A stretch of DNA of 64,000 nucleotides from Burkholderiaceae bacterium. Lineage in GTDB: Bacteria; Pseudomonadota; Gammaproteobacteria; Burkholderiales; Burkholderiaceae_C. Positions 13,416 to 63,770 of the stretch are shown in pieces. Position 1 is the stretch's first letter; every line of letters starts with the position of its first letter. The stretch is from the NCBI GenBank assembly GCA_023150375.1, contig JAKLLA010000018.1, forward strand, positions 92,444 to 156,443. The letters run 5' to 3'. Made by a program: the position numbers and the translations under genes. The notes below the pieces were generated by a model, which was given only the letters and a program-made list of their open reading frames with translations, was not told where the DNA came from and searched no databases.

Positions 13416-15296
13416 ATGGCGATGTCGACCGCTCCCTTTCTGCCGCTGCCCTTCCTGCCACGCGATCTGGCGGTGGAGGTGCGCCGCGACGGTGCCATCC
13501 TCATGCGCAGCCGGGTGCCGCTGGGTCCGGTGGAGCCGCATCTGCCGGCCATGCTGCTGCGGCAGGCCCGTGTGCGAGCCGCACAGCCCTGGCTGATGCA
13601 GCGCCGCGGCGATGGCGCGGCCTGGCGCGCACTGAGCTATGGCGAAGCGGCCGAACAGGCCCAGGCTGCCGCACAGTGGCTGCTCGCGCAGGATCGCCCC
13701 GGACGCGCCGTGATGGTGCTCAGCGGCAACAGCCTCGAGCACGCCGTGTTCGAGCTGGCGGCGATGAAAGCGCGCATGCCCTATGTGCCGGTCACGCCTG
13801 CCTACTCGCTGCTCAGCGCCGACCATGCCAAGCTGCGCGCGATGGTCGAGCTGATCGACCCGGCGGTCGTCTTCGTGCAGGAAGCAGCCCGCTTCGAACG
13901 GGCGCTGCGTGCGCTCGGCCTCCGCGATGTGCGCGTGATCCACGTCGAGGCCCCGGTTGCCGGCCTGGCATCGACGCCCTGGTCCGAGGTGACGGCCACG
14001 CCGGTCGGCGAGGCGGTGCAGGCGTCCATCGCCGCGATCGAGCCCGGCACCGTCGCCAAAGTCCTGTTCACCTCCGGTTCCACCGGGGTGCCCAAGGCGG
14101 TGCCGGTGACGCAGCATATGCTCTGCGCCACCACGGCGATGCATGCCCAGACGGTGCAGCGGGACGCCGACACGCCCCCATCGGTGCTGCTGGAGTGGCT
14201 GCCCTGGAGCCATGTGGCCGGCGGCACCGCGATCTTCGACAGCGTGCTGGAGGACGGCGGCACGATGTACCTGGACGACGGCCGCCCGGTACCCGGCGAG
14301 TTCGAGAAGACGCTGCGCAACCTCGAAGAGGTCTCGCCCACCCGCTTCTCCAGCGTGCCGGCCGGCTATGCGATGCTGGCCGACGCGCTGGAGCGCAGCG
14401 AGTCGCTGGGGCACCACTTCTTCCGCCGGCTGCGCCGCCTCACCTCTTCCGGCGCCAAGCTGCCCGACAGCCTGTACCAGCGCCTGCAGGCGCAGGCGGT
14501 GCGCCACCTGGGGCACCGGGTGCCCTTCGTGGCCGGCTACGGCTCCACCGAGACCTGCGCGGCCACCACCGTGATCCATTGGCCCACCGAGCTGCCCGGC
14601 CTGGTCGGCCTGCCCCAGCCGGGCGTGGAGCTCAAGCTGGTGCCGCTGGACGACCAGCGCTACGAGGTGCGGGTGCGCGGCCCCTCGGTGATGTCGGGTT
14701 ACCTGGCGCAGCCCGAGCTGACACGCCAGGCCTTCGACGACGAGGGCTACTACGGCATGGGCGACGCGGTCACCTTCGTCGATCGGGCCCGCCCGGAGGA
14801 AGGGCTGGCCTTCGCCGGGCGGGTGGCCGAGGAGTTCAAGCTGCAGTCCGGCATCTTCGTGCGGGTGGGCAGCCTGCGTGTGGAGCTGGTCGGTGCCCTG
14901 GCGCCGTGGATCACCGACGTCGTCGTCACCGGCGCGGATCGGGCCTGGGTGGGGTTGCTGGCCTGGCCGAACGTCGCCGCCTGCCGCGAACGCTTCGGCG
15001 CGCTGCCGCTGCCCGAACTCCTGCGGCAGCCGGCCCTGCACGAGGCATTGCACCAGGCGCTGCAGCGGCACAACGCAGACCACAGCGGCAGCAGCCGGCG
15101 CATTGCGCGGATGCTGCTGCTGGCCGAGCCGCCGTCGCTGGACGCCGGCGAAATCACCGACAAGGGCTATGTGAACCAGCGCGCCGTGCTGGCGCGCCGC
15201 GCGGCGGACGTCGAGCGGCTCTACGCCGCAACGGTCGGGCCCGATGTCGTGGTGATCGATCCTGCTCACACGCCTTCCCAACGGGAGAACGCATGA
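13416..15296 (+). CDS. Feruloyl-CoA synthase-like acyl-CoA ligase (locus A)
   Basis: AMP-binding motif LFTSGSTGVPKAV; PSVLLEWLPWSHVAGG; GYGSTETCAA; GEITDKGYVNQRAVL. Confidence 0.85.
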   Translation: MAMSTAPFLPLPFLPRDLAVEVRRDGAILMRSRVPLGPVEPHLPAMLLRQARVRAAQPWLMQRRGDGAAWRALSYGEAAEQAQAAAQWLLAQDRPGRAVMVLSGNSLEHAVFELAAMKARMPYVPVTPAYSLLSADHAKLRAMVELIDPAVVFVQEAARFERALRALGLRDVRVIHVEAPVAGLASTPWSEVTATPVGEAVQASIAAIEPGTVAKVLFTSGSTGVPKAVPVTQHMLCATTAMHAQTVQRDADTPPSVLLEWLPWSHVAGGTAIFDSVLEDGGTMYLDDGRPVPGEFEKTLRNLEEVSPTRFSSVPAGYAMLADALERSESLGHHFFRRLRRLTSSGAKLPDSLYQRLQAQAVRHLGHRVPFVAGYGSTETCAATTVIHWPTELPGLVGLPQPGVELKLVPLDDQRYEVRVRGPSVMSGYLAQPELTRQAFDDEGYYGMGDAVTFVDRARPEEGLAFAGRVAEEFKLQSGIFVRVGSLRVELVGALAPWITDVVVTGADRAWVGLLAWPNVAACRERFGALPLPELLRQPALHEALHQALQRHNADHSGSSRRIARMLLLAEPPSLDAGEITDKGYVNQRAVLARRAADVERLYAATVGPDVVVIDPAHTPSQRENA

Positions 15297-16108
15297 CGAC
15301 GACGAACGCATCTGCGGCGCCGCAGCGCCTGATCGAGCTGCAGCGCGAGGACGGCATCCTGCTCGTGCAGCTCAACCGGCCCGACAAGCGCAACGCGATC
15401 AACGACGCCCTGATGGCCCAGCTCGAGGAGGTGTTCACCGACGGCCTGGGCGATGCGCGCGTGGTGATCCTGCACGGTGCCGGGGCGCATTTCAGCGCCG
15501 GGCTGGACCTGTTCGAACTGATGAGCCAGCCCAACCCCGACGTGGTGGTCGGCATGCGGCGCTCGCGCCGCTGGCACCGCGCCTTCGACACGATCCAGTT
15601 CGGCGAGGTGCCGGTGATCAGCGTGCTCGAGGGCGGCGTGATCGGCGGCGGCTTCGAGCTGGCCGCGGCCACGCATGTGCGCGTCACCGAGCAGTCGGCC
15701 TTCTTCCAGCTGCCCGAGGGCCAGCGCGGCATCTTCCTGGGCGGCAGCGGCTCGGTGCGCATTCCGCGCCTCATCGGTGCGGGCCGGGTGGTGGAGATGA
15801 TGCTGACCGGCCGCTCGCTCAGCGCTGCCGAGGCCCTGCAGCTGGGCGTGGCGCACTACCTGGTGGACGACGGCGCCGGCCTGGCCAAGGCGCGCGAGCT
15901 GGCGCAGGCCATCGCGCGCAACGCGACGGCCACCAACTACGCCGTCATCAACGGCATCCAGCGCATCAGCGAGATGCCCATGGGCGAAGGCCTCTTCGCC
16001 GAAACGATGGTGACGGTGATGACCAAGGCCGCCGGCACCGGTGCCGGCCAGCGCATCCACGAGTTCTTCGAGGGGCGCCGCCAGCGGTCGGAAGACGCCG
16101 GCCGCTGA
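15293..16108 (+). CDS. Enoyl-CoA hydratase/isomerase (crotonase) family protein
   Basis: LNRPDKRNAINDALMAQLEEVF, AGAHFSAGLDLFEL, GGVIGGGFELAAATHVRV; ATGA overlap with the upstream gene. Confidence 0.9.
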   Translation: MTTTNASAAPQRLIELQREDGILLVQLNRPDKRNAINDALMAQLEEVFTDGLGDARVVILHGAGAHFSAGLDLFELMSQPNPDVVVGMRRSRRWHRAFDTIQFGEVPVISVLEGGVIGGGFELAAATHVRVTEQSAFFQLPEGQRGIFLGGSGSVRIPRLIGAGRVVEMMLTGRSLSAAEALQLGVAHYLVDDGAGLAKARELAQAIARNATATNYAVINGIQRISEMPMGEGLFAETMVTVMTKAAGTGAGQRIHEFFEGRRQRSEDAGR

Positions 16109-35539: not shown

Positions 35540-35549
35540 CGCGTCAACC

Positions 35550-37454: not shown

Positions 37455-37481
37455 GTGTTTCCTCCCTGCAAGCGCAGGCAA

Positions 37482-38159: not shown

Positions 38160-38163
38160 CGCT

Positions 38164-39432: not shown

Positions 39433-39439
39433 GACCCAT

Positions 39440-39462: not shown

Positions 39463-39570
39463 TCTTGCAGAAAATGTTCAAGATAGGCGTCAATATTCGG
39501 TGAAGAATTGTGGATATTCCCCCTGGCAACACTGCGGGTTCAACCCCGAGTCCGCGCCATCGCGGTGCGT

Positions 39571-42194: not shown

Positions 42195-42210
42195 GGTGTC
42201 AGCCTCGCCA

Positions 42211-44901: not shown

Positions 44902-47900
44902 GCGTTGCTCCCTTTGTGTTTTGGGTGGGCAGTACCACCATGAATGCCAGCACCTCGAAGTCACCGGCCCCGGCGAACTCGCCCTTCATGGCGTGCGTGC
45001 CGCCGGGCGAGAACAAGCTGGCGACGGCGCGCTCTTCGGCCTTTCCGACCACTGAAGCCACGGCCGAGGCCAGCAGCTTCTGGGCGTGCCGCATGTCCTC
45101 GCCTTGGCGGGTCAGCTTGTCGTGGCGGCTGCTGGCGCCCAGGTCGGGCAGCTCGCGGCCCAGCGCCAGGCGCTTGAGGCGGTCCAGGATGCGCTTGGCC
45201 TGAGGGTAGGCGAGCACCGTGGTGCCGTCGTCGCCCACATGGGCCAGGTAGATCGGCGCCAGTGGGTAGTCGCCGGATCCGGCGCCGGCTGGGGCCTTGC
45301 TTCCGCCAGCGCCCTCGGCCCGCAGGCAGAAGATGATGCCGGGCTCGATGTCGGCGTCGATGCTGCTCGTGACGGCGTACGCGCCCAGCGGCATGCCCTC
45401 CAGCACCGCCGGATGGTCGCGAAGGAACTGCGCGAGGTCGATGCGGAAGTCGGTCAGCGTCAGGTCGGTGATCGAGACCCCGCTGCTCAGGTCTTCCATG
45501 TCGATGACGGAGTCCTGCAGCTTCAAGAGCTGCTTGCGGCGGTACTCCAGGTCGTTCATCGGGTCGCCGGACTGTTGCTCGATGAGGTTCTCCTCACCGG
45601 TGGCTGACACGTCCAGCAGCACCATGCGCCCGCTGACGCGCTGCTCCAGGTTGATGTACTCGTCGAGCGCGATGTTCGGCCAGAAGTTGACCAGTTGGAT
45701 GCTGCGGTTGGGCGAGCCGATGCGGTCGATTCGGCCGAAGCGCTGGATGATGCGGACCGGGTTCCAGTGGATGTCGTAGTTGATGAGCCAGTCGCAGTCC
45801 TGCAGGTTCTGACCTTCAGAGATGCAGTCGGTCGCGATCAGCAGGTCAATCTCGCCTTCACCGGCCATGTCGGCCGGGCGCTCCTTGGCGCGGGGCGCGA
45901 AGGCCGACAGCACGCTGCTCATGCTCTTGCGCAGGCCCGGCAGAGTGGTCTGGATGCCGGCGCTGCCGGTGACCAGGGCGGCGTCGATGCCCAGCGTGGC
46001 CTTGGCCCAGGGCGCCAGGTTGGCGTAGAGGTACTGGGCGGTGTCCGAGAACGCAGTGAAGACGATGATCTTGCGGTTGCCGTCGTTGATGGGGTGGCGG
46101 CACTTGTCCTCGACCATCTCGCGCAGCTTGGCCAGCTTGGCGTCACGTGCGGCATCCACCTGCTGGGCGGCGGTCAGCAGCGTGTCCAGGCGGTTGCGGT
46201 CCTCCACCAGGTCCTGACGCCACCGGATGCGGTCCACGTCGCCCAGCAGCACCTTCACCTTGCGGCCGACCAGCAGCGCCTCGAAGGCCGGGTCGTCGAT
46301 GTCCACGTCGGCGATGTCCAGCTCTTCGATGCCGTCCCCGTTGGTGGCCTGGCCGGCATGCTGCTCGATCTGCGCGAGCACCGCCTCCACGTCGCGGAGT
46401 TGCCGCTGCAGCGTCAGCGCGAACGACGATACGGCGCTCTCCATGCGCTTGAGCACGTTCACCCGCAGCAGGTGGATGAGGCTTTCCTCGCGGTCGGCCT
46501 GACGGAAGAAGCTCTCGCCGCCCCGGATCTCGGTGCTGTACTTGGCGTCGTAGGCAGCCTGCTTGTGCGGCAGCACGTAGCGCAGCGGCGCGTAGGCGGC
46601 CAGGTTCAGGCGCCGGATCTCCAGGTTGATGTCCTTGATGGCGCGGAACTGGCCCGCCCGGTCCACGTCGGCCTTGATGTTGATGGGCGGCCGGCGGTCC
46701 GGAAAGCGGCCGGTCTCCTGCGTGCCGTAGTACTTCTGGATGTGCCGGCGCGACCGCGCGATCGTCAGGTGGTCCAGGAGCGTGAAGTAGTCGAAGCCCA
46801 GCATCTCGACCAGACGGCTGGGCGTGCGCTCGCGCTCTTCCAGGCCGAGCCAGCGGTTGAACTGGATCTGCGCCTTGCGCGTGGTCTGCTGGATGCTGTC
46901 GATGCCGTAGTCGGCCAGCGCGGTGTCGTCGCCTTCGGTGGCGAACGCGATTTGGTTGCGCAGGTCGGTCAGCCGGTTGTTCACCGGCGTGGCCGACAGC
47001 ATCAGCACCCGGGTCTTGACCCCTTCCCGGATGATCTTGCGCATCAGTCGGTCGTAGCGTGTCTCGGTGCCTTGCCGGGGCGACTTCTTGTTGCGGAAGT
47101 TGTGGCTCTCGTCGATGACGACCAGGTCGTAGTTGCCCCAGTTCACATGGGACAGGTCGATGTCGCCCGAGTGGCCGCCGTCGCGCGACAGGTCGGTGTG
47201 GTTCAACACGTCGTAGTTGAACCGGTCCGCCGCCAGGATGTTGCGCTTGTCGTTGGCCTTGTAGAGGGTCCAGTTGTCGCGCAGGCGCTTGGGGGCCAGG
47301 ACCAGCACGCGGTCGTTGCGCAGCTCGTGGTACTTGATGACGGCCAGGGCCTCGAAGGTCTTACCGAGGCCTACGCTGTCCGCGATGATGCAGCCGCCAA
47401 AGCGCGCCAGCTTGTCGATGGCGCCGACCACGCCATCCCGCTGGAACTTGAAGAGCTTCTTCCAGACCACCGTGTTGCGGATGCCGGTGGCCGACTTGAC
47501 GATGCGCTCTTCGTCCAGCGCATCTTCCCGCCCGCCGAACAAGTGGTTCAGCATCAGCGCGTAGATCGCGAACGGCGCCCGGTGCTCGCCGATGGACTTG
47601 AGTTGGTCGAGCAAGGCCTGGCGCGCGGCGTCCGCCGACTCAGTGGCCGACGGCAGCGTCTTCCACTGCTGATCGAACCACTGGGCAAGCATCGCGGCCT
47701 CGGCGGAGCTCTCTGAGGCTTGCGTCAGGCTCAGGGGGTTGCCGGGCGTCAGCCCCAGCCCCTCCGTGCTCATGGCCACCGAACCCATGACGACTTGCTC
47801 GGGGGTGCCCTGCGCGTTGCGCAGCACGGCCGTGCCTTGCGGGATCCGGCCGGGTGCACGCCGTACCTCCACCTGGCCCTGTAGCCAAGCAGCGCACTGA

Positions 47901-48151
47901 TTGGCCAGCCACCGGGTCTGCAGCCGATTGCGGGCTGCACGGTCGCCTTCACCGCCCTGAATCTCCAGGTCCTGGCCTTCGCCCGGCAGGATGAGCTGGG
48001 TGCTGTTCACGCGGGCCAGCGCATCGCGCAGCTCGGCGTAGGCATGCAACGAAAAGGTCGGCGTCATGAACGCCAGCAACTGGCCCGTCTTCAGGTGGGG
48101 GCGCAGTAGGTCGATGGCGCGGTCAGCGCCTCGGTTCTGTACCAGCTTCAT
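44873..48151 (-). CDS. SNF2-type superfamily II helicase with PLD-like N-terminal region
   Basis: GGCIIADSVGLGKTFEALAVIKYHELRNDRVLVLAPKRLRDNW, LVVIDESHNFRN, DLLIATDCISEGQNLQDCDWLINYDIHWNPVRIIQRFGRIDRIGS. Confidence 0.88.
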   Translation of the reverse strand: MKLVQNRGADRAIDLLRPHLKTGQLLAFMTPTFSLHAYAELRDALARVNSTQLILPGEGQDLEIQGGEGDRAARNRLQTRWLANQCAAWLQGQVEVRRAPGRIPQGTAVLRNAQGTPEQVVMGSVAMSTEGLGLTPGNPLSLTQASESSAEAAMLAQWFDQQWKTLPSATESADAARQALLDQLKSIGEHRAPFAIYALMLNHLFGGREDALDEERIVKSATGIRNTVVWKKLFKFQRDGVVGAIDKLARFGGCIIADSVGLGKTFEALAVIKYHELRNDRVLVLAPKRLRDNWTLYKANDKRNILAADRFNYDVLNHTDLSRDGGHSGDIDLSHVNWGNYDLVVIDESHNFRNKKSPRQGTETRYDRLMRKIIREGVKTRVLMLSATPVNNRLTDLRNQIAFATEGDDTALADYGIDSIQQTTRKAQIQFNRWLGLEERERTPSRLVEMLGFDYFTLLDHLTIARSRRHIQKYYGTQETGRFPDRRPPINIKADVDRAGQFRAIKDINLEIRRLNLAAYAPLRYVLPHKQAAYDAKYSTEIRGGESFFRQADREESLIHLLRVNVLKRMESAVSSFALTLQRQLRDVEAVLAQIEQHAGQATNGDGIEELDIADVDIDDPAFEALLVGRKVKVLLGDVDRIRWRQDLVEDRNRLDTLLTAAQQVDAARDAKLAKLREMVEDKCRHPINDGNRKIIVFTAFSDTAQYLYANLAPWAKATLGIDAALVTGSAGIQTTLPGLRKSMSSVLSAFAPRAKERPADMAGEGEIDLLIATDCISEGQNLQDCDWLINYDIHWNPVRIIQRFGRIDRIGSPNRSIQLVNFWPNIALDEYINLEQRVSGRMVLLDVSATGEENLIEQQSGDPMNDLEYRRKQLLKLQDSVIDMEDLSSGVSITDLTLTDFRIDLAQFLRDHPAVLEGMPLGAYAVTSSIDADIEPGIIFCLRAEGAGGSKAPAGAGSGDYPLAPIYLAHVGDDGTTVLAYPQAKRILDRLKRLALGRELPDLGASSRHDKLTRQGEDMRHAQKLLASAVASVVGKAEERAVASLFSPGGTHAMKGEFAGAGDFEVLAFMVVLPTQNTKGATHEHGAQPTP

Positions 48152-49036: not shown

Positions 49037-50254
49037 TCAGAGCATCTCTCTCCAGCGCGCCTCGCCGTCGAAGACGGCCGCGACGGGCCGGATGCGCTCG
49101 TAGGGGATGGCCTCGTGGTTGGCCAGGGCCGGGGTGCGGTTCTGCATGAACTCGCGCACCGCGGCCAGCAGGCAGCGCCGCACCGCCAGAACCGCACCGT
49201 CGCCAGCGCCCAGGTACTCCTTGCTGCGGTCGACGATCGGACCCATGCTCATGATCACCGCGAAGTCCTCGGTGCCCAGCGCCTGGGTAAAGCCGGTGAA
49301 GTGGCCGTTCTTCATGGCCTCGCGGTCCTGGCCCCAGTTGTCCTCGGGCGGGCCCGGCGGCAGCGGCGGCCAGGACTCGGGGCGGGTGTCCGACACCTGC
49401 TGGGTGATCTCCACCGGCTGGTCGAAGTCGTAGACGATGTTCCAGTAGCACAGGTGCTCGTCGTCCACCGGCACGGCGAAGAAGAAGTTGCCGCCGCGCG
49501 ACTGGCTGCGCCCGGGCGCCACCACGCCGTACCAGGGCAGCACGAAGGAGTTGGTCCGCACGTACGAGCTGCCGTCGGCGAGCGCGCGCACCGAGGCGTA
49601 GCGGAAGCCGTAGGGCTTCTGCTCGACGTGGTAGACCGGCGCCATGTTGGCCGACGACAGGCGGATGTCGCCCACGCTGGAGAGCCAGCTCTGGTGCAGC
49701 ATGCCGAGGTGGGCCGAGTCCATCGTCGTCTCCACGCCCTGCAGCCAGTTGGCGGGCACCGTCTGGCACACCGCCACCACATGGCCGGGCGGCAGGCCGC
49801 AGAACTCGAAGTTCTGGAACTTCGGCGGCGTGTCGCCCTCGCCGAGCCACACCCAGTAGATGCCGCCCTCCTCGCGCACGGGGTAGTGCTCGAGCGGCAC
49901 GTGCTTGCAGTACTCGGCCTCGTTGGCCGGCTGGGTGGGCACGGCCACGGTGACGCCCTCGACGCTGAACTTCCAGCCGTGGTAGATGCAGCGCAGCGCG
50001 TTGTCCTCGTTGCGCGCCAGGGCCATCGAGGCGCCGCGGTGCGGGCAGGCCTCGTCGAAGAAGCCCACCTTGCCGCCGGTGGCGCGGAAGGCCACGTAGT
50101 TGCGGCCCAGCAGGCGCACCCGCCTGGGCTTGCCGTCGGCTTCCAGCTGGGCCGACAGGCCGGCGGGGATCCACCAGTGCTGGCGGATCATGCGCCCCAT
50201 CGGGGCATCGCCGCTGACGCGGGTGAGCAGCTCGTTGTCTTCACGGGACAGCAT
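49037..50254 (-). CDS. Rieske [2Fe-2S] aromatic ring-hydroxylating oxygenase alpha subunit (locus B)
   Basis: MLSREDNELLTRVSGDAPMGRM...CPHRGAS...CIYHGWKFSVEG...NWLQGVETTMDSAHLGMLHQ. Confidence 0.92.
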   Translation of the reverse strand: MLSREDNELLTRVSGDAPMGRMIRQHWWIPAGLSAQLEADGKPRRVRLLGRNYVAFRATGGKVGFFDEACPHRGASMALARNEDNALRCIYHGWKFSVEGVTVAVPTQPANEAEYCKHVPLEHYPVREEGGIYWVWLGEGDTPPKFQNFEFCGLPPGHVVAVCQTVPANWLQGVETTMDSAHLGMLHQSWLSSVGDIRLSSANMAPVYHVEQKPYGFRYASVRALADGSSYVRTNSFVLPWYGVVAPGRSQSRGGNFFFAVPVDDEHLCYWNIVYDFDQPVEITQQVSDTRPESWPPLPPGPPEDNWGQDREAMKNGHFTGFTQALGTEDFAVIMSMGPIVDRSKEYLGAGDGAVLAVRRCLLAAVREFMQNRTPALANHEAIPYERIRPVAAVFDGEARWREML

Positions 50255-50329: not shown

Positions 50330-52189
50330 TCAGGCCATCACGATCACCTCGGCGTCCGGCCGTTCGGCAAACAGGCGCGCCACCTCGGCGGACCGGCGCG
50401 TCAGCACCAGCCGCTGGTTGACGTAGCCCTTGTCGGTGATCTCGCCGGCGCCGATGTCGGGCGGCTGCGTCAGCAGCAGCAGGCGGTGCACCTGGCGGCT
50501 GCTGCCGCCGGCTGCACGGTTGTGCGCCTCGAAGGCGGCGCGCAGCGTCTCGCGCAGCCCGGGATCGGCAACGAGGTCTGCCAGCGAGGCGTCGGGCCGA
50601 CCGAGCCGGGCGCGGCAGGCCGCCGGGTTCGGCCAGGCCAGCAGCGCCACGAAGGGCTGGTCGGCACCGGCCACCACCACGTCGTTGAGCAGCCCCTGCG
50701 CCGCCTCGATGCAGTCCACCCGCAGCGCACCGACGCGCACGAAGATGCCGGACTGCAGCTTGAATTCCTCGGTCACCCGGCCGCTGAAGAACAGGCCGGC
50801 CTCGGGCCGATCGGGGTCGGCGAACTGCACCGCGTCGCCCATGCGGAAGAAGCCTTCCTCGTCGAAGGCCTCGGCCGTGGCCTGCGGTTGATTCAGGTAG
50901 CCCGGTGTCACGCAGGCGCTGCGCACCCGGATCTCGTAGCGCTGGTCGTCCATCGGCAGCAGCTTCACCGTCACGCCCGGGTGCGGCAGGCCGATCACGC
51001 CGGCGCTGTCGGCGCACCAGTGCGTCACCGTCACGGCCGCGGCGGTCTCGGTGGAACCGAAGGCCGAGACGAAGGGGATGCGTGCGCCGATGCTGCGCAC
51101 CGCGGCGGCCTGGATGCGGTCGAACACCGAATCCGGCAGGCGCGCGCCGGCATAGTTGGTGCGGCGCAGGCGGCGGAAGAAGGCGTCGGCCAGCATCGGG
51201 TCCGCCTCCATCGCCTCGGCCAGCATGGTGTAGCCCAGCGGCACGCTGATGAAGTTGGTGGGTGACACCTCGCGCAGGTTGCGCAGCGTTTCGTCGAACA
51301 GGCCCGGCACCGGCTTGCCGTCGTCGATCCAGAGCTCGCCGCCTTCGGCCAGTGCCACGCCGAACATGATGTTGCCGCTGGCCACATGGCTCCAGGGCAT
51401 CCAGTCCAGCAGCACGCTGGGCGGCGTGCCGGGCGGGTCGAGCACCACCTGCCGGTGCATGGTGATGCTGATCGTCAGCATGCCGTGGGTGATCGTCGCC
51501 GCCTTGGGCAGGCCGGTGGAGCCGGAGGTGAAGAGGTACTTGGCCACCGTCTCCGGCCGGATCGCCGCCACCGAGTCGGCCACCGCCGGCCCGGGACGCA
51601 CGGCCAGCCAGTCGGGCCAGTGCGCCGTCGCCAGATCCTCCGGACCCGACTCGACCACCACACGCACCCCATCGGCCGGCAGGCGCAGGCCACGCAGCGC
51701 GCGCTCGAAATGCCGGCCATCCTGCGCGAACACCACCGCCGGCTGCAGCAGGTCCACCATGCCCTGCAGCTTGGCCAGGTCCTGCGTCAGCAGCGAATAG
51801 GCAGGCGTGATGGGTACATAGGGCATGCGCGCCTGCATGGCCGCCAGCTCCAGCACGCCATGCTCGATCGAGTTGCCACTGAGCACCGCGACGCAGCGCC
51901 CGGGCCGGTCCAGGTCGAGCAGGGCCTGCGTCACCGCATCGACCTGGCGCAGCGCCTCGCCGTAGTGCAGCTGCCGCCACTGCCGCTGCGGGCCGTGGCG
52001 CTGCGACAGCCACAGGGCGTCCGGTCGGCTGCGGCCATGCCGGCGCAGCAGCCCCGGCAGGTGCGGCTCGACTTCGCCCAGCGGCACGCGGCTGCTCAGC
52101 AGCAGCGTGCCGTCGTCGCGCCGCTGCAGCGCGAGGTCGCGCGGCATGAAGGGCAGGTCGCGAAAAGGTACGTCGGTCAGCACCGTCAC
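50330..52189 (-). CDS. Feruloyl-CoA synthase-like acyl-CoA ligase (locus B)
   Basis: YLFTSGSTGLPKAATI; PSVLLDWMPWSHVASGN; AFGSTETAAAVT; GEITDKGYVNQRLVL. Confidence 0.87.
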   Translation of the reverse strand: MTVLTDVPFRDLPFMPRDLALQRRDDGTLLLSSRVPLGEVEPHLPGLLRRHGRSRPDALWLSQRHGPQRQWRQLHYGEALRQVDAVTQALLDLDRPGRCVAVLSGNSIEHGVLELAAMQARMPYVPITPAYSLLTQDLAKLQGMVDLLQPAVVFAQDGRHFERALRGLRLPADGVRVVVESGPEDLATAHWPDWLAVRPGPAVADSVAAIRPETVAKYLFTSGSTGLPKAATITHGMLTISITMHRQVVLDPPGTPPSVLLDWMPWSHVASGNIMFGVALAEGGELWIDDGKPVPGLFDETLRNLREVSPTNFISVPLGYTMLAEAMEADPMLADAFFRRLRRTNYAGARLPDSVFDRIQAAAVRSIGARIPFVSAFGSTETAAAVTVTHWCADSAGVIGLPHPGVTVKLLPMDDQRYEIRVRSACVTPGYLNQPQATAEAFDEEGFFRMGDAVQFADPDRPEAGLFFSGRVTEEFKLQSGIFVRVGALRVDCIEAAQGLLNDVVVAGADQPFVALLAWPNPAACRARLGRPDASLADLVADPGLRETLRAAFEAHNRAAGGSSRQVHRLLLLTQPPDIGAGEITDKGYVNQRLVLTRRSAEVARLFAERPDAEVIVMA

Positions 52190-52207: not shown

Positions 52208-53992
<1,785 letters not shown>

Positions 53993-54001: not shown

Positions 54002-55693
54002 TCAGTCTGCGCCGGGCACGAAGCGGCCGCCTTCGCGCGCCAGCCGCTCCAGCAGCGCGGCAGGGCGGAAGCGCTCGCCGAAGCGCTCCTGCAGCTCGCC
54101 CAGGCGGCGCAGCACCCAGGCGGCGCCCAGCCGGTCGGCGTGGTACATCGGGCCGCCGCGCCAGGCCGGCCAGCCGAAGCCGCGCTGCCAGACCACGTCG
54201 ATGTCGCTGGCCCGGTCGACGATGCCCTCCTCGACCAGCTTGGCGCCCTCGTTGAGCATCGGCAGCAGGAGCCGGTCGCGCACTTCGTCGTCGCCGATCG
54301 CCCGGCGCTCGATGCCGAGTTCGCGCGAGGCCTGTTCGATCAGCGCGGTGACTTCCGGGTCGGGGATCGGCCGGCGCTTGCCCGGATCGTAGCGGTAGAA
54401 GCCCTTGCCGGTCTTCTGGCCCAGCCGCCCGGCCGCCACCAGGCCGGCCAGGATGGGGTCGTGCTGGCCACGCTCCTGGCGCACCCGGTGGACCAGCTCG
54501 ATGCCGCCGGCCATGTCGGCCAGTTCGTAGCTGCCCATGGGCAGGCCGAACTCGGTGAGCACCCGGTCGATCTGCTGCGGCAGCGCGCCTTCGAGCAGCA
54601 GCCGGTCGGCTTCCTGGTCACGCGCGATGAGCAGCCGGTTGCCGACGAAGCCATGGCACACGCCCACCACCACCGCCGTCTTGCGCAGCCGGCTGCCGAT
54701 GCGCTGGGCCGCCGCGACCACCTCGGGCCGGGTGCGCGGGCCACGCACCACCTCGAGCAGCGGCATCACATGCGCCGGGCTGAAGAAGTGCAGGCCGACC
54801 ACCTGGCCGGGCCGGCTGGTGGCGTCCGCGATGCGGTCGATGTCCAGCGCCGAGGTGTTGCTGCCGAGGATGGCGTGGGCCGGCGCATGGCGGTCGATCT
54901 GCGCAAAGATCTCCTGCTTGAGCGCGAGCTGCTCCCACACTGCCTCGATCACCAGGTCGGCCTGGGCGACATCCTCGACACGTGTGCTCAGGTGCAGCGC
55001 CGCACGGCGTGCAGCGGCATCCTCCGCGCTGAGTCGGCCACGCTTGACCATGGCGTCGAAGTGGTTCCCCACCGTCTGGCGGGCCGATTCGAGCACGGCC
55101 TCGCTGCGGTCGATCAGCGTCACCGGCAGGCCCGCCGCGAGCAGCGCGGTGGTGATGCCCGAGCCCATGCTGCCGGCGCCCACCACCGCCGCCTGCCGCA
55201 GCGGCGGGGCATCGTCGTCGGCGCTGATGCCATTGGCTGCCGCGCGCAGCGCCTGCGCCGCATAGGCGCGGGCGCGGTTGGCCTCGGGGGTCGTGAAGGT
55301 GGCCGCCGGCACGCCTTCGGCCCCTTCGCTGACGTGCAGCTCGACCGGGTCGCCGATGCGCAGGCCGAAGACATCGGCATCGATGACCGAGGTGGTGATG
55401 CGCGGCCCCTCGGGCAGCTCGACCACCGCAACCGCCGTGGGCCGCTTCGCGCCGCGCACGATCGAGAACGAATAGACCGTGCCGACGCCGCGGGTGGTCA
55501 GCCACTCGGTGGGCGCATGGCCGCAGAACGGGCAGTGTTCGCGCGGGTAGAAGTGCGCCGATCCGCAGGCGCTGCAGTGCTTGATCAGCAGCCGCCCTTC
55601 GGCCAGGGCTTCCAGGTAGGGCGCGGCCGCGGGAAAGCGCTGCGCCGGGGTGAGCGTGGGGGACGGGGCGTGGACAGGAGAGGGTCGTGCCAT
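54002..55693 (-). CDS. Fusion protein: DUF35 (Zn-ribbon/OB-fold) + 3-hydroxyacyl-CoA dehydrogenase
   Basis: N-terminus LLIKHCSACGSAHFYPREHCPFCGHAPTEW...VYSFSIV; C-terminus AAVVGAGSMGSGITTALLAAGLPVTLIDRS, ILGSNTSALDIDRIA, VGLHFFSPAHVMPLLEVV, KTGKGFYRYDPGKR. Confidence 0.88.
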   Translation of the reverse strand: MARPSPVHAPSPTLTPAQRFPAAAPYLEALAEGRLLIKHCSACGSAHFYPREHCPFCGHAPTEWLTTRGVGTVYSFSIVRGAKRPTAVAVVELPEGPRITTSVIDADVFGLRIGDPVELHVSEGAEGVPAATFTTPEANRARAYAAQALRAAANGISADDDAPPLRQAAVVGAGSMGSGITTALLAAGLPVTLIDRSEAVLESARQTVGNHFDAMVKRGRLSAEDAAARRAALHLSTRVEDVAQADLVIEAVWEQLALKQEIFAQIDRHAPAHAILGSNTSALDIDRIADATSRPGQVVGLHFFSPAHVMPLLEVVRGPRTRPEVVAAAQRIGSRLRKTAVVVGVCHGFVGNRLLIARDQEADRLLLEGALPQQIDRVLTEFGLPMGSYELADMAGGIELVHRVRQERGQHDPILAGLVAAGRLGQKTGKGFYRYDPGKRRPIPDPEVTALIEQASRELGIERRAIGDDEVRDRLLLPMLNEGAKLVEEGIVDRASDIDVVWQRGFGWPAWRGGPMYHADRLGAAWVLRRLGELQERFGERFRPAALLERLAREGGRFVPGAD

Positions 55694-55697: not shown

Positions 55698-56867
55698 TCA
55701 CTCCGCGGCCAGGATCAGCGTGCCCGAGGCGTGGTAGCCCGCCAGCGAGCCGCCGGTGCCGTGGGCCAGCACGATGTCGTGGTTCTTCACCTGCACGGCC
55801 GGATGGGCTTCGCCGCGGCACTGCCGCACCGCTTCGAGGATCTTGGTCATGCCGCCCTTGTTGCCGGGGTGGTTGTTGCACAGGCCGCCGCCGTCGGTGT
55901 TGAAGGGCAGCCGCCCGACGCCCGAGATGAGGTTGCCGTCGGCGACGAAGCGCCCGCCCTCGCCCTTCTTGCAGAAGCCCAGGTCCTCCAGCTGCAGGAT
56001 CACCGTGATCGTGAAGCTGTCGTACAGCGAGGCGTACCGGATGTCGGCCGGTGTGACGCCGGCTTCCGCGAAGGCGGTGGCGCCCGAGCGCACCCCGGCG
56101 GAATACGTCAGGTCGATGCGGCCGCCGTCGGCATGCTTGAAGGCCTCGCCGGCGCCGATCACCTTCACCCGCGGGCGCTTCAGCGACCTGGCGATCTCCG
56201 GCCGCGCCACCACCACCGCGCCGCCGCCGTCGGTCATCACGCAGCAGTCCAGCCGGTGCAGCGGGTCGGCCACCATCGGCGAGTCCAGCACGTCCTGCAC
56301 CGTCAGCACCTTGCGCATCAAGGCGTGCGGGTTGTGCTGCGCATGGTGCGAGGCGGCCACCTTCACCCAGGCCAGCTGCTCGCTGGTGGTGCCGAACTCG
56401 TGCATGTGCCGGCGCGCGACCATCGCGTAGCCGTACATCGGCACGGGTACCGTGCCGGCGTAGTACGGGCGGTCCGGCATGCGGCTGAAGTCGATGCCCG
56501 CCAGCGAGGTGCCGGCATGGGCCGCCAGCGGGCGGTCGGCCAGCGTCACCAGCGCCACGTTGCACTGGCCGGCGGCGATCGCCCGCATCGCATGGTTCAC
56601 ATGCAGCAGGTAGGACGAACCGCCGGTCTCGGTGCTGTCGAGGTAGCGCAGATGCCGCAGGCCGAGGTACTCGGCCATCGACATGCCGCCGATGCCCGGG
56701 GCGTCGGCGGCGCAGAAGTAGCCGTCGACATCGTCCAGGCCCAGGCCCGCGTCGGCCAGCGCGCCGCGGGCCACGTCGGCATGCAGCTGCGCCGCGGTCA
56801 GACCGTCGGCCCGGCGGACCGGGTGCTCGTGGATGCCTACGATGTAGGCCTTGCCGTTCACACTCAT
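55698..56867 (-). CDS. Thiolase (SCP-x-like lipid-transfer thiolase family)
   Basis: MSVNGKAYIVGIHEHPVRRADGLTAAQLHADVARGALADAGLGLDDVDGYFC...; CCVMTDGGGAVVV; GLCNNHPGNKGGMTKILEAVRQCRGEA. Confidence 0.85.
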   Translation of the reverse strand: MSVNGKAYIVGIHEHPVRRADGLTAAQLHADVARGALADAGLGLDDVDGYFCAADAPGIGGMSMAEYLGLRHLRYLDSTETGGSSYLLHVNHAMRAIAAGQCNVALVTLADRPLAAHAGTSLAGIDFSRMPDRPYYAGTVPVPMYGYAMVARRHMHEFGTTSEQLAWVKVAASHHAQHNPHALMRKVLTVQDVLDSPMVADPLHRLDCCVMTDGGGAVVVARPEIARSLKRPRVKVIGAGEAFKHADGGRIDLTYSAGVRSGATAFAEAGVTPADIRYASLYDSFTITVILQLEDLGFCKKGEGGRFVADGNLISGVGRLPFNTDGGGLCNNHPGNKGGMTKILEAVRQCRGEAHPAVQVKNHDIVLAHGTGGSLAGYHASGTLILAAE

Positions 56868-56878: not shown

Positions 56879-57865
56879 TCACGCGTCCGGCTTGAAGCCG
56901 GTCTTGCGCACCCGATCGGGCCAGGCGGCGTGGTTGTCGCGCATGGCCTTGGCGAAGTCGGCCTGCGTGCTCGTGTCCGCCTCGATCGCCAGCTTGTTCA
57001 GCACCTCGACGGTCTCCGGCTGCGCGATGGCCGTGCGGATGGCCCCGTGGGCGCGTGCGACCGTGGCTTCCGACGCGCCGCGCGGCATCCACACGCCGTA
57101 CCACTCGGCCGACTCCATGAAGGAGAAGCCCTGCTCGCCGAAAGTCGGCACCTCCTGCGCGAAGCGCGACCGCCGGGCGCCGGAGGTGGCCAGCAGGCGC
57201 ATGCGGCCGCTGGCGCGGTGCGGCAGCGAGTCGCCCACCGGCGAGTACATCGCCGGAATCTGCCCGCCCAGCAGGTCCTGCACCCCGGGTGCCGAGCCGC
57301 GATACGGGATGTGATTCAGCGCCACCCCGGACTCCCGGGACAGCAGCCGGACGAAGAACTCCTGCGGGCTGCCGGCGCCGGGAGAGCCGAAATTGGCGCG
57401 CGCGGGGTTGGCCTTCACCCAGTCCAGGAAGTCACGCACGGTCCTGACCGTCTCGGGCACCGCCGGGCCGACGGCAAAGCCGTACTGGACCGTTCCGCAG
57501 CCGGCGACGGCCACACCGTCCTCGAACTTGAAGGGCGTGTTCTTCGGATCGACGTGCGGCTGCAGCGTGATGACGGTCTCGGGCTGCAGGATGACGACGC
57601 TGCCATCGGTCGCGCCGCGACGCATCTCGTCGAAGGCCAGACGCCCCCCCGCGCCCACCTTGTTCTCCACGATCACCTGCCGGGCGTAGCCGACGGTCCG
57701 CAGGCCCTCGGCCAGCCGCCGGGCGGCGGCATCGGTGGTCCCGCCGGCCGGAAAGCCGCAGAGGATCCTGGCGATCTCCAGGGGCCCCTGAGCCCGCAGT
57801 GGCGCGGAGGTCGCTGCGGCCAGCGCAGCCATCCCACCGACGACTTGTCGACGTGTCACGTTCAT
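56879..57865 (-). CDS. Bug-family tripartite tricarboxylate transporter substrate-binding receptor
   Basis: ARILCGFPAGGTTDAAARRLAEGL, NFGSPGAGSPQEFFVRLL, HIPYRGSAPGVQDLLGGQIPAMYSPVG. Confidence 0.9.
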   Translation of the reverse strand: MNVTRRQVVGGMAALAAATSAPLRAQGPLEIARILCGFPAGGTTDAAARRLAEGLRTVGYARQVIVENKVGAGGRLAFDEMRRGATDGSVVILQPETVITLQPHVDPKNTPFKFEDGVAVAGCGTVQYGFAVGPAVPETVRTVRDFLDWVKANPARANFGSPGAGSPQEFFVRLLSRESGVALNHIPYRGSAPGVQDLLGGQIPAMYSPVGDSLPHRASGRMRLLATSGARRSRFAQEVPTFGEQGFSFMESAEWYGVWMPRGASEATVARAHGAIRTAIAQPETVEVLNKLAIEADTSTQADFAKAMRDNHAAWPDRVRKTGFKPDA

Positions 57866-58036: not shown

Positions 58037-61000
58037 TCAGCGGAAGTCCCGGCTCGCCCCCACCGCCAGCCCGCCCAGCAGCGGCGTCAGGTCCTCGACG
58101 TGCGCGGCGATCAGGTTGCGCAGTTCGCCCTCGCGCTGCCAGGTGCCCTTCACGCCCAGCAGCTGCGCACGCAGCAGCGGCCCGCGCAGCCGCTCCTTGA
58201 CCTTGGGCCAGACGATCACCTGCACGTTGCCGGTCTCGTCCTCCAGCGAGACGAACATCACCCCGTGCGCCGTCTGCGGCTGCTGGCGCACCGTGACGAT
58301 GCCGCAGGCCCGGGCCAGGCTGCCGTGGCGGCGGTGGTGCAGCTCCATCGCCGTGTTCCAGCCCAGCCTGGCCAGCGTGGGCCGCAGGATCGCCAGCGGG
58401 TGCCGGCGCAGCGTCAGGCCGGTGGCGGCGTAGTCCCAGACCACCTCCTCGCCCTCTGGTGCCTCGGGCAGCTCCAGCACCGCCTCGTCCACCGGCGCCT
58501 CGCGCAGCAGCAGCGGCGCCGGGCGCAGGGCCGAGGCCTCCCAGACCTGCTGGCGGCGGTGCCCGGCCAGGCTGAGCAGCGCATCGGCGGCGGCCAGGTG
58601 GTTCATCTCATGCTGCTCCAGGACAGCGCGCCGGGCCAGGTCCTCGGCGCTGTCGAAGGGCGCGCAGCGGCGTGCGGCGACGATGCGCTGCCCCGCCGCG
58701 GCCGTCAGCCCCCCGATCATCCGCAGGCCCAGGCGCACCGCCGGCGGCCCCGGCAGGCCCTCGAGCGTGCAGTCCCAGTGGCTGTGCATCACGTCGACGC
58801 GGCGCACCTCCACGCCATGCCGCTTGGCGTCCTGCACCAGCTGGCTGGGGCTGTAGAACCCGAGCGGCTGGCTGTTCAGCATGGCCGCCAGGAACTCCGC
58901 CGGGTGGTGGCACTTGAGCCAGCAGCTCGCGTAGACCAGCAGCGCGAAGGAGGCCGCATGGCTCTCCGGGAAGCCGTACTCCGAAAAGCCCTTGATCTGC
59001 TCGAAGATCGCCTCGGCGAAGGCCCGCTCGTAGCCCCGCTGGGTCATGCCGTCGACGATCCTGGCGTGGTACTGCTGCAGCCCGCCCTTGCGCTTCCAGG
59101 CCGCCATCGCCCGGCGCAGCTGGTCGGCCTCGCCGGGCGTGAAGCCGGCCGCCAGGATGGCCACCTGCATCACCTGCTCCTGGAACACCGGCACGCCCAG
59201 CGTGCGGCCCAGCGCCGCCTTCAGGGCCTGGCTCGGGAAGGTCACCGGCTCCTTGCCCTGGCGGCGGTTCAGGTAGGGGTGCACCATGCCGCCCTGGATC
59301 GGCCCCGGGCGCACGATGGCCACCTCGATCACCAGGTCGTAGAAGCAGCGCGGCTTCAGGCGCGGCAGCATGCTCATCTGCGCCCGGCTCTCGATCTGGA
59401 ACACGCCCACCGTGTCGGCCCGGCAGATCATGTCGTAGGTGGTGCGGTCCTCGGCCGGGATGTCCTGCAGGCCGAAGGCATGGCCCAGGCGCTGGCCGAC
59501 GAAGTCCAGGCTCTTGCGGATCGCGGTCAGCATGCCCAGGGCCAGCACGTCGACCTTGAGCAGGCCCAGCGCGTCGATGTCGTCCTTGTCCCACTGGATC
59601 ACGGTGCGCTCGGGCATCGCGGCGTTCTCGATGGGCACCAGGCGCGACAGCGGCCCTTGCGTCAGCACGAAGCCGCCCGGGTGCTGGCTCAGGTGGCGCG
59701 GAAAGCCGACCAGCTGCCGGGTGAGTTCCATCAGCTGGCGGATCGCCAGGTCGTCCAGCGACAGCCCCAGCTCCTGCACCCGGTCGGCGCGCACCCCGCC
59801 GCCGTCCCAGGCGCTGTGGTTCTTCGCCAGGGCGTCGACCAGCCCGGCGTCGAGCCCGAGGGCCTTGCCCACGTCGCGGATGGCCGAGCGGGGCCGGTAG
59901 CTGATCGCCACCGCGGTCAGGGCGGCACGGCTGCGGCCGTACTTGTCGTAGAGGTACTGGATCACCTCCTCGCGCCGCTCGTGCTCGAAGTCCACGTCGA
60001 TGTCGGGCGGCTCGTTGCGCTCGCGGCTGATGAAGCGCTCGAAGAGCACCGCCATGCGCGCCGGGTCCACCTCGGTGACGCCCAGGCAGTAGCAGACCAC
60101 CGAGTTGGCCGCCGAGCCCCGCCCCTGGCAGAGGATGTGGCGCGAGCGCGCGAAGGCGACGATGTCGTGGACGGTCAGGAAGTAGTGCTCGTAGCGCAGC
60201 TCGGCGATCAGCGCCAGCTCGTGCTCGATCTGCGCGGCCACCGCCGCCGGAATGCCCCCAGGCCAGCGCCGCCCGGCGCCCTCATGGGTGAGCCGGCGCA
60301 GGTGGGAGGCCGGGGTCTCGCCCGCAGGCACCACCTCGGCCGGGTACTGGTAGCGCAGCTCGTCGAGCGAGAAGGCGCAGCGCCCGGCCACCTGCAGCGT
60401 CTGGGCCAGCAGGTCGGCCGGGTAGGTCTGCGCCAGGCGCAGCCGGGTGCGCAGGTGCTGCTCGGCATTGCCCTGCAGCGCCAGGCCGCATTCGGTCAGC
60501 GGCCGGCCCAGCCGGGTGGCCGTCAGCACGTCGTGCAGGGCCTTGCGCGAGCGCACGTGCATCTGCACATCGCCCAGTGCCACCAGCGGGATGGCCGAGA
60601 GCTCGCCGGCCTCGCGCAGGCGGTGCAGCCAGACCTCGTCGTCGAGCCGGCGCAGCAGCGACACGCCCAGCCAGCAGCGCCCGGTGAAGTGGGTCAGCAG
60701 CCAGCGCGCCAGATCGAGCAGCTGCGCGGGCGAGGCCCCCCGCTGCGGCGCGGCCAGCACCAGGCAGTCCTGCAGCGCCTGCGCGCGGATGGCGGCGCGG
60801 TCGAGGGTGTAGCGGCCCTTGGCGGCGCTGCGGCGCAGGCGGGTGATGAACTCGCAGAGGTTGCCGTAGCCGTTCAGGTTGCAGGCCAGCAGGATCAGGT
60901 CGAAGGCGCCCTGGTCGCCCCCCTCGGCCGGCACCGCGAAGCGGCTGCCCACGATCAGCGGCAGGCCGACCTTCTTCGCGGCCACATGGGCGCGCACCAC

Positions 61001-61171
61001 GCCGGCCACCGAGCACTCGTCGGTCAGCGCCAGCGCGGCATAGCCCAGCCGGGCGGCGCGCTCGACCAGCTCCTCGGGCTGGCTGGCGCCCTGCAGGAAG
61101 GAGAAACTGGACAGGCACTGCAGCTCGGCATAGGCCGGGACGACGGCAGCGGACTCGACGGGCTCGGCCAT
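58037..61171 (-). CDS. dnaE2: Error-prone DNA polymerase III alpha DnaE2/ImuC
   Basis: AELQCLSSFSFLQGASQPEELVERAARLGYAALALTDECSVAGVVRAH; FERFISRERNEPPDIDVDFEHERREEVIQYLYDKYGR; 1044 aa. Confidence 0.95.
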   Translation of the reverse strand: MAEPVESAAVVPAYAELQCLSSFSFLQGASQPEELVERAARLGYAALALTDECSVAGVVRAHVAAKKVGLPLIVGSRFAVPAEGGDQGAFDLILLACNLNGYGNLCEFITRLRRSAAKGRYTLDRAAIRAQALQDCLVLAAPQRGASPAQLLDLARWLLTHFTGRCWLGVSLLRRLDDEVWLHRLREAGELSAIPLVALGDVQMHVRSRKALHDVLTATRLGRPLTECGLALQGNAEQHLRTRLRLAQTYPADLLAQTLQVAGRCAFSLDELRYQYPAEVVPAGETPASHLRRLTHEGAGRRWPGGIPAAVAAQIEHELALIAELRYEHYFLTVHDIVAFARSRHILCQGRGSAANSVVCYCLGVTEVDPARMAVLFERFISRERNEPPDIDVDFEHERREEVIQYLYDKYGRSRAALTAVAISYRPRSAIRDVGKALGLDAGLVDALAKNHSAWDGGGVRADRVQELGLSLDDLAIRQLMELTRQLVGFPRHLSQHPGGFVLTQGPLSRLVPIENAAMPERTVIQWDKDDIDALGLLKVDVLALGMLTAIRKSLDFVGQRLGHAFGLQDIPAEDRTTYDMICRADTVGVFQIESRAQMSMLPRLKPRCFYDLVIEVAIVRPGPIQGGMVHPYLNRRQGKEPVTFPSQALKAALGRTLGVPVFQEQVMQVAILAAGFTPGEADQLRRAMAAWKRKGGLQQYHARIVDGMTQRGYERAFAEAIFEQIKGFSEYGFPESHAASFALLVYASCWLKCHHPAEFLAAMLNSQPLGFYSPSQLVQDAKRHGVEVRRVDVMHSHWDCTLEGLPGPPAVRLGLRMIGGLTAAAGQRIVAARRCAPFDSAEDLARRAVLEQHEMNHLAAADALLSLAGHRRQQVWEASALRPAPLLLREAPVDEAVLELPEAPEGEEVVWDYAATGLTLRRHPLAILRPTLARLGWNTAMELHHRRHGSLARACGIVTVRQQPQTAHGVMFVSLEDETGNVQVIVWPKVKERLRGPLLRAQLLGVKGTWQREGELRNLIAAHVEDLTPLLGGLAVGASRDFR

Positions 61172-61192: not shown

Positions 61193-62581
61193 TCAGGCGA
61201 ACACGCCGTGCAGGTACCAGGCGGTCCGGTCGTTGGCCAGACGCTCCTGGAAGATCCACAGCACCCCGGCGTGCTCGCTCAGCGCCACCCAGTAGTCGCG
61301 CTGCACATGGGCGGTGCGGGCCTGCGCGCCCTCGCCCAGGCGGTGCCACCAGCCACCCTCGACGCGGTGCGGGCCGGTGAGCAGCTGCAGCGGGCCCTGG
61401 TAGATCGGGCGCGGCCCCTGGGTGGCCAGCTCGAGCGGCTCGGGCAGCAGCCAGGTCGGCTGCGGCAGCCCCGCCTCGCCGGCCGGCGGCTGGGCGCCGG
61501 CCGCGGCAGGCCGCCCCGGCCCCGTGTCCACCCACCGGCCCGGCGCATGGGGCTGCCACTGCTGCATCCACTCCGGCCGGTGGTCGTCCAGGCACAGCGG
61601 GCGACGCACCCGCTCGGGCCCGAGCCGCGCGGCAATGCGCTCGAGCACCTGCGGCAGCGACTCCTGCGGCGCCGCCTCCTCGGGCAGCAGCGAGGCGCTG
61701 CGCCCGTCGAGCGGGCACACCTCCAGCGCCACCAGCGCGAGTTCGCCGACCGGGGCCTGCAGGTGCAGCCGGGCCAGGTGCTCGCCCAGCAGGCGGCCGA
61801 GGTGCGCCACGTCGCGGGTGGGCTCGGCGGTGCGCAGGGTGAGCTCGCCGCCCGCGCCGGCCTCGCGGGCGCGCATCGCATCGTGCGCCCAGTGCAGCGT
61901 GAAGGCGCGCACCCCGCTGTGGCGCGCGGCCAGCCAGCCGCACAGCGACAGCAGCAGGCGCCGGGCGCCGAACAGCAGCGCCGGTGCCGCCTCGACCCGC
62001 GAAGGCAGCTCCAGTCGGGCCGAGAAGGTCTCGGGCAGCTCCACCCAGGCGTAGGTCTCGGGCTGCAGGCCGTAGGCACGGTCCAGGGCGTCGAGCAGCG
62101 CCTTGCCGAAGCGCCGGCTGATCCCGCCCCGGGGCAGGCGGCGCACATCGCCCAGGCGACGGCAGCCCAGCCGGGCCAGCGTGCCGGCGTGCGGGCGCAG
62201 CGCCGTGAGCACGGCCATCGGCAGCGCATCCAGCGTGGCCTCCAGCGGCGGCCGCAGGCCGTTCCCGGGGCTGGTCCCGAAACCGTTCTCGACACCGTTC
62301 CCGGAGCCCGCCCGCGCCAGCGCCAGCGCGGCCAGGCCGGTGCGCGACCAGGCCAGCGCGGCGACGCCCAGCTCGTGCCCCTCCTGCACGATGCGCTCGC
62401 GCAGCGCCCGCCCGCCGCCGAACAGGCGCAGGCTGGCCCGGACCTCGAGCAGCACCGCCTCCTCGCACAGGGCCACCCGGGGCGTGAACTGCAGCGCCCA
62501 GGTCGCCACGCTGCGCAGCGCCTCAGCGCTGGGCAGCGGCGCTTCGGGCGCGGGCGGCAGGCGCAGGGCGGCCCAGAGCAT
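61193..62581 (-). CDS. imuB: ImuB, Y-family polymerase-like protein
   Basis: Position between imuA and dnaE2; CEEAVLLEVRASLRLFGGGRALRERI; GCRRLGDVRRLPRGGISRRFGKALLDALDRAYG. Confidence 0.9.
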   Translation of the reverse strand: MLWAALRLPPAPEAPLPSAEALRSVATWALQFTPRVALCEEAVLLEVRASLRLFGGGRALRERIVQEGHELGVAALAWSRTGLAALALARAGSGNGVENGFGTSPGNGLRPPLEATLDALPMAVLTALRPHAGTLARLGCRRLGDVRRLPRGGISRRFGKALLDALDRAYGLQPETYAWVELPETFSARLELPSRVEAAPALLFGARRLLLSLCGWLAARHSGVRAFTLHWAHDAMRAREAGAGGELTLRTAEPTRDVAHLGRLLGEHLARLHLQAPVGELALVALEVCPLDGRSASLLPEEAAPQESLPQVLERIAARLGPERVRRPLCLDDHRPEWMQQWQPHAPGRWVDTGPGRPAAAGAQPPAGEAGLPQPTWLLPEPLELATQGPRPIYQGPLQLLTGPHRVEGGWWHRLGEGAQARTAHVQRDYWVALSEHAGVLWIFQERLANDRTAWYLHGVFA

Positions 62582-63458: not shown

Positions 63459-63471
63459 GGCTGATCTCGTG

Positions 63472-63487
63472 CTGTATGGATATACAG
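63472..63487. promoter_or_regulatory. LexA box CTGTATGGATATACAG upstream of imuA
   Basis: Exact CTGT-N8-ACAG, 13 bp upstream of the imuA start codon. Confidence 0.88.
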
Positions 63488-63770
63488 TATTGCACCGACC
63501 ACCGTCGCTTGCCAAGAGGCGGCCCTTCCGTGCGCCGCATCGCGACGGATCGCAGCCGGCGATGCCGCGGCGTCCTGCCGTCGGTCGACCGAGGTGGCGC
63601 AGGTCCCTCCTGAACATCCGCCGACTCGTCTCGAGATGTGCCCCTAGGTGACAGATCGGCTTCGGGCCGCGCCGGTAGAATTTCCTGGTTTGCAAGCGGT
63701 GCAGACGCTCGACATGCTGCCGCCCACCGGTCCCGACGCAGCGGCAATGCCGCAACGAGAAAGAATCCGC

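Follow-up and report, generated by a model that had tools for sequence, protein, structure and literature searches.

A DUF35 domain in place of the crotonase half of an MFE-1-type 3-hydroxyacyl-CoA dehydrogenase, a putative docking module for a cysteine-less thiolase-fold partner

The analysed 64,000-nucleotide stretch of DNA (the window) encodes on its minus strand, from an ATG at 55693 to a stop codon at 54002, a fusion of a DUF35 domain with a 3-hydroxyacyl-CoA dehydrogenase (HAD), an architecture that is rare but not private to the source genome. The protein can be read as an MFE-1-type HAD carrying a DUF35 docking module in the crotonase position, by which the HAD would be clamped onto the thiolase-fold enzyme encoded by the gene ending 4 nt upstream. 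A single complex would then hold the last two steps of β-oxidation, from 3-hydroxyacyl-CoA to 3-oxoacyl-CoA and on to cleavage, with the hydratase as a separate protein, and the pathway would run from a CoA ligase through an acyl-CoA dehydrogenase (ACAD), the hydratase and the DUF35-HAD to the thiolase-fold enzyme, acting on an aryl-propanoid acid. Because the partner is devoid of the thiolase cysteine, it is proposed to act on the 3-oxoacyl-CoA or the hydrate of this compound, cleaving it with no covalent acyl-enzyme and releasing acetyl-CoA, with Tyr282 serving as the base and His333 as the acid. Taken as a whole, this explanation, which combines a tethered HAD with non-covalent 3-oxoacyl-CoA cleavage of an aryl-propanoid chain, has in our estimate an even chance of being correct. 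The features concerned are listed in Table 1.

Table 1. Positions in the window of the fusion, its modules and the associated genes.
Feature	Position	Strand	Evidence
TctC-type solute-binding protein, at the head of the presumed operon	56879..57862	-	PF03401
Thiolase-fold protein without the cysteine (PRK08142 type, 389 aa), putative partner and C-C cleaving enzyme	55698..56867	-	NF006010, 660 bits
DUF35::3-hydroxyacyl-CoA dehydrogenase fusion, 563 aa	54002..55693	-	ORF and Pfam; conserved in L008, L009, L010
DUF35 module (zinc ribbon and OB fold, residues 28-120), presumed docking domain	55334..55612	-	PF12172, PF01796
Linker helix, residues 136-153, approximately the MFE-1 interdomain linker region	55235..55288	-	AF2 model and 6ium profile alignment
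HAD module (Rossmann and duplicated C-terminal domain), residues 168-563	54005..55192	-	PF02737, PF00725, active-site residues
ACAD with PF12806 C-terminal domain	52208..53992	-	Pfam; homologue in 4/4 fusion clusters
Acyl-CoA ligase, PRK12582 family	50330..52189	-	NF009232, 800.9 bits; in 4/4 fusion clusters
Rieske oxygenase with LigXa_C domain, putative O-demethylase	49037..50254	-	Pfam
Enoyl-CoA hydratase (ECH), candidate for the step lacking in the fusion operon	15293..16108	+	PF00378, NF006013

The fusion had been proposed in the initial annotation, and both its coordinates and its domains are confirmed. Matches above the Pfam curated cut-offs were obtained for zf-ChsH2 (PF12172, residues 28-58, E = 3.5e-12), OB_ChsH2_C (PF01796, residues 69-120, E = 4.7e-11), 3HCDH_N (PF02737, residues 168-344, E = 6.3e-59) and 3HCDH (PF00725, residues 348-435), the last followed by a second 3HCDH stretch, the C-terminal domain being duplicated. 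The N-terminus displays the rubredoxin-like Cys4 zinc ribbon and the subsequent OB fold of DUF35 proteins, with Cys40, Cys43, Cys54 and Cys57 as the zinc ligands, whereas the remainder has the GxGxxG NAD motif, the catalytic residues Ser281, His302, Glu314 and Asn352 and the duplicated C-terminal domain of the MFE-1/FadB dehydrogenases. The zinc ligands, the NAD motif and the catalytic residues are all intact and likewise invariant across the four fusions. A frameshift or assembly artefact is ruled out, since three further assemblies carry this fusion too, with identities of 52-61%.

The earlier description of the C-terminal part as a full FadB-like dehydrogenase is correct for the HAD half, which is complete, but the crotonase (hydratase/isomerase) domain found at the N-terminus of the FadB/MFE-1 multifunctional enzymes is absent and DUF35 stands in its stead. 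The NCBIfam models for FadB and FadJ correspondingly match only the C-terminal half of the fusion, with scores far under the cut-off. The AF2 model (pLDDT 77) consists of the OB strands, the helix 136-153 and then the HAD fold, and has MFE-1/FadB enzymes as its best PDB matches, while the solved structures nearest to the DUF35 module are 9myr_B (Shy DUF35) and 6ok1_B (ChsH2 DUF35). As in 6ium, 1zcj and 1wdk, the duplicated HAD is preceded by a linker, and the identity to 6ium is 40%; the alignment of the fusion profile with 6ium starts at profile position 129 and chain residue 258, which is the interdomain linker. The tree includes 103 HAD relatives without the fusion; a crotonase half was recognised by motif in the ORF of 82 of them and by eye in several more. 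Since the nearest unfused HADs are thus mostly crotonase-HAD proteins and the 6ium alignment runs from the linker onward, sequence comparison places DUF35 in the position of the hydratase half of an MFE-1-type enzyme. The thiolase-fold partner also sets the system apart from MFE-1/FadB, as it is not of the FadA type.

Full-length matches to the fusion were found by a genome-collection scan in at least three other genomes, MAGs assigned to Hydrogenophaga (L008), Betaproteobacteria (L009) and Alphaproteobacteria (L010), that is, two beta- and one alphaproteobacterial genome besides the source genome. The four fusions, three of which come from MAGs, form one clade (SH-aLRT 100). At E ≤ 1e-115 no further full-length match was present in three overlapping sets, drawn from the family (251 genomes), the order (399) and the phylum (399), and all remaining matches start at fusion residue 104 or later. 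With the DUF35 half as the query, all other frames found in 369 genomes of the class were at most 321 aa long; all of these surveys draw on sampled genomes, with thresholds that may miss divergent fusions. Plasmid-borne spread was rejected, as 80% coverage of the protein was not reached by any of 72,556 plasmid records. Two sets of apparent fusions were also discarded. In Cupriavidus respiraculi (L082), where a joined tblastn range suggested one, the HAD, DUF35 and thiolase-like proteins are encoded by separate genes, and in the long stop-to-stop frames of L120, L127 and L139 the added length lies upstream of DUF35, which ends at the stop. Fusions of DUF35 to thiolase-superfamily, Rossmann-fold, SCP2 and hot-dog domains have been noted earlier (PMC2954200), so the idea of DUF35 fusions is already known. 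For the DUF35-HAD combination no description was found in the open literature, searches for ChsH2 with HAD and for aromatic β-oxidation included, and with its rarity in every survey the architecture is not a common and annotated one.

The gene order along the minus strand is TctC, thiolase-like, fusion, ACAD, ligase and Rieske oxygenase, with gaps of 11, 4, 9, 18 and 75 nt, respectively. The ligase belongs to a family that we take to be feruloyl-CoA-synthetase-like. All four fusions are encoded directly 3′ of the same thiolase-like gene, with ligase, ACAD and ECH homologues in the cluster; the ECH of the window lies about 38 kb from the fusion, and its homologues are inside the clusters of L008, L009 and L010. 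The LigXa-like Rieske oxygenase has a homologue in L009 (67%) and only a Rieske relative in L010 (31%), and none was found in L008. The gene neighbours, among them ring-modifying Rieske oxygenases, support the aromatic side-chain setting suggested in the initial annotation and, together with general knowledge of the families, make an aryl-propanoid substrate a reasonably probable one.

The ECH gene is part of a second, paralogous set (10880-17383) comprising a MarR regulator, ACAD, ligase, ECH and LigXa-like Rieske oxygenase, in which the PF12806 ACAD, the PRK12582-like ligase and the Rieske oxygenase are about 60%, 57% and 73% identical to their paralogues in the fusion operon, and which has no thiolase-like or HAD gene of its own. 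This set is followed by a family-5 solute-binding protein (17448-19061) and by genes for LigB, amidohydrolase_2, FAA hydrolase and cupin proteins, which look like an aromatic ring-cleavage locus. The two catabolic sets are separated by a defence-island-like stretch (32544-48151) with a type III restriction enzyme and methyltransferase (32544-37481), an AbiLii/AbiLi-like pair (37482-39462) and an HKD and Snf2 helicase protein of a candidate-defence type (44873-48151). A possible second defence locus is formed by an Orf5/HEC-06/SspE-like protein (4525-6684) adjoining a type I restriction-enzyme-like protein (6687-9779), and DnaE2 polymerase- (58037-61171), ImuB- (61193-62581) and ImuA-like genes (62523-63755), identified by eye from the sequence, resemble a mutagenic-repair cassette. 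Elsewhere in the source genome, contig C28 holds unlinked parts of a similar pathway (L088:7112-13851, L089:7092-9721), namely a standalone FadB-type HAD (48% identity) accompanied by ECH, Rieske oxygenases and TctC, and, about 8-15 kb away, a TctC gene followed by a thiolase-like gene (68%) and a standalone DUF35 gene near CaiB- and ECH-like genes.

The neighbouring gene had initially been described as an SCP-x-type thiolase, and while the gene is indeed adjacent, the label is probably wrong. Thiolases need a nucleophilic cysteine, and the corresponding position is occupied by Gly83, which in the alignment faces the cysteine of 7yvy, a Pyrococcus thiolase, and Gly89 of CtSal. The HDCF motif of the SCP2-type thiolases is likewise replaced, by Tyr282-Asp-Ser-Phe, and YDSF is found in all 30 sampled loci. 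The nearest characterised folds are those of Sal and Ltp2, and the protein shares with these aldolases both the tyrosine base of the YD-F/Y motif and the glycine in place of the cysteine. By residue counting on the alignment, Tyr282 and Ser284 correspond to the base Tyr302 and the acid Cys304 of CtSal, respectively, and His333 to Gln352 of CtSal and the position of Tyr344 in Ltp2, and the catalytic acid of either aldolase is therefore not retained. The top structure match is 4u4e, a crystal structure described merely as a putative thiolase, although the AF2 model is weak (pLDDT 60.5) and the fold matches serve only to support the sequence result. Given Gly83 and the YDSF motif, the protein does not appear to be a conventional thiolase, nor is it a proven member of either aldolase type.

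The presence of an ACAD, a hydratase and an intact HAD suggests that oxidation to the 3-oxoacyl-CoA precedes cleavage, and since, in addition, no ordinary thiolase Cys motif was detected in the 64-kb window and no ALDH homologue in the window or in L008-L010 with a single ALDH query, which leaves room for one encoded elsewhere, a non-covalent cleavage of the 3-oxoacyl-CoA is favoured. It is rather likely that the fusion HAD and the partner catalyse consecutive reactions, while hydrolytic cleavage by the Tyr/His pair falls somewhat short of an even chance, and the complete picture of a tethered machine, in which the HAD would hand its 3-oxoacyl-CoA to the Cys-less enzyme for a hydrolytic retro-Claisen cleavage by these residues, is tentative. 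Among solved structures there is, to our knowledge, no precedent for a 3-oxoacyl-CoA hydrolase with a Cys-less thiolase fold. For most of the unfused thiolase-like/DUF35 pairs, the 12-20 kb examined contain neither an HAD nor a ligase or ACAD of the types seen here, so the basic chemistry of the partner need not involve an HAD; the neighbourhoods of 20 such pairs contain mostly unrelated genes, with short-chain dehydrogenases near one of them (L156, by eye only).

The loss of the cysteine and the tyrosine of the YD-F motif are common to Sal and Ltp2, which cleave the 3-hydroxyacyl-CoA substrate of the HAD and not its product, and this speaks against the main explanation. A retro-aldol reaction of the Sal/Ltp2 kind, from 3-hydroxyacyl-CoA to an aryl aldehyde and acetyl-CoA, is consequently a serious rival to the favoured 3-oxoacyl-CoA cleavage, though possible rather than probable. 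The tethered HAD would then be a branch or proofreading activity that, for example, acts on the other 3-hydroxy stereoisomer or reduces 3-oxoacyl-CoA back to 3-hydroxyacyl-CoA for the aldolase. Such chemistry better fits the ancestry of the partner, with its counterparts of CtSal Gly89 and Tyr302 and its nearest characterised folds, and both known aldolases are tethered through DUF35 to an enzyme of a neighbouring step (PMC11321319, PMC12329534). However, the acid residues of Sal and Ltp2 are replaced, the ALDH query found no homologue in the window or in L008-L010, and the HAD, present in all four clusters, would oxidise the aldolase substrate away and be left without an obvious role. It is considerably less probable that the partner is a thiolase with a displaced nucleophile, such as Cys330 beside His333, and forms an ordinary dehydrogenase-thiolase couple: both residues are invariant in five aligned homologues and the pathway logic would be that of ordinary β-oxidation, but all orthologues examined have the glycine at the canonical site and YDSF for HDCF, and a serine is found at the Cys330 position in 4u4e and CtSal.

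The tethering of the HAD to the partner, an idea of the initial annotation, finds support in the gene arrangement. In the 30 sampled loci of the order, the window included, DUF35 is encoded 3-93 nt downstream of the YDSF protein on the same strand. Where no fusion exists, in 29 of these loci, it is a standalone gene whose frame stops 0-3 residues past the domain; only the frame of the window continues into an HAD. The source genome has only two PF01796 matches, each beside one of two close thiolase-like paralogues. Among characterised proteins, both halves find their best matches in a single solved complex, 9myr, one in each of its chains (CtSal and the CtShy DUF35), and the nearest structures are the Sal/Shy-DUF35 and Ltp2/ChsH2-DUF35 complexes. 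Because DUF35 sits at the place of the standalone gene in all 29 sampled relatives and because of the 9myr match, docking onto the thiolase-like partner is a well-supported prediction, and a physical complex of the two proteins is likely. Hardly probable, by comparison, is a DUF35 that serves only the stability or oligomerisation of the HAD, with a common pathway and no complex behind the linkage to the thiolase-like gene, for although a fusion by itself is no proof of binding and the catalytic efficiency of the Shy MaoC does not need DUF35 (PMC11321319), the domain lies exactly at the site of the standalone docking subunit and no further PF01796 match is left in the genome for this thiolase-like protein.

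Of the known systems, the Shy-Sal hydratase-aldolase complex of Comamonas testosteroni (PDB 9myr, an alpha-beta-beta-alpha heterotetramer; PMC11321319, PMC12329534) comes closest to the arrangement. Shy consists of an N-terminal DUF35 and a catalytic MaoC domain, is encoded downstream of sal and uses DUF35 to bind Sal (PMC11321319), by a flexible tether that its authors judged inconsistent with direct channelling (PMC12329534), a role that the initial annotation had considered for the tethering in the fusion. The fusion likewise joins an N-terminal DUF35 to a catalytic domain belonging to the same CoA pathway, and is encoded directly downstream of a thiolase-fold partner with a glycine at the nucleophile position and a YD-motif tyrosine, but the catalytic domain is an HAD instead of the MaoC hydratase, the zinc site is Cys4 and not Cys3His1, the partner has YDSF and His333 where Sal has YDCY and Gln352, and the gene setting is aromatic rather than steroid. 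In ChsH1-ChsH2-Ltp2 (PDB 6ok1), DUF35 also joins a β-oxidation enzyme to a Cys-less thiolase-fold protein, as is predicted here, although it is located C-terminally to MaoC and Ltp2 has YDHF and Tyr344. The benzoylsuccinyl-CoA thiolase BbsAB (7pxp) and the archaeal thiolase/DUF35/HMG-CoA synthase complex (6esq) combine a thiolase fold with DUF35 and acyl-CoA substrates as well, but their DUF35 is standalone and both are described as active thiolases; in the alignment, BbsB keeps an HDAF-type histidine, unlike the neighbour of the fusion. Finally, the PRK08142-type pairs, including that on contig C28, have the same thiolase-like protein at about 62-72% identity, with 4u4e as its nearest solved relative, and DUF35 directly downstream, but in these DUF35 stops at the domain end and no HAD follows.

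The thiolase-like gene and DUF35 form a frequent pair in changing neighbourhoods (L113-L141); at E ≤ 1e-120 the thiolase-like gene is present in 37 of the 399 genomes sampled from the order. This large YDSF group of the PRK08142 type is annotated as thiolase or acetyl-CoA acetyltransferase, probably in error since the thiolase nucleophile is missing, and the fusion provides a strong hint as to which reaction neighbours that of the YDSF partner. DUF35 has so far been seen as a tether of hydratases to aldolases and as a bridge of thiolases with condensing enzymes; if an HAD is indeed another of its cargoes, DUF35 would be a general adaptor for swappable successive enzymes of CoA pathways. Should the hydrolytic retro-Claisen reading also hold, the β-oxidation would end with no thiolase involved, and the Sal/Ltp2 group would gain a third active-site solution.
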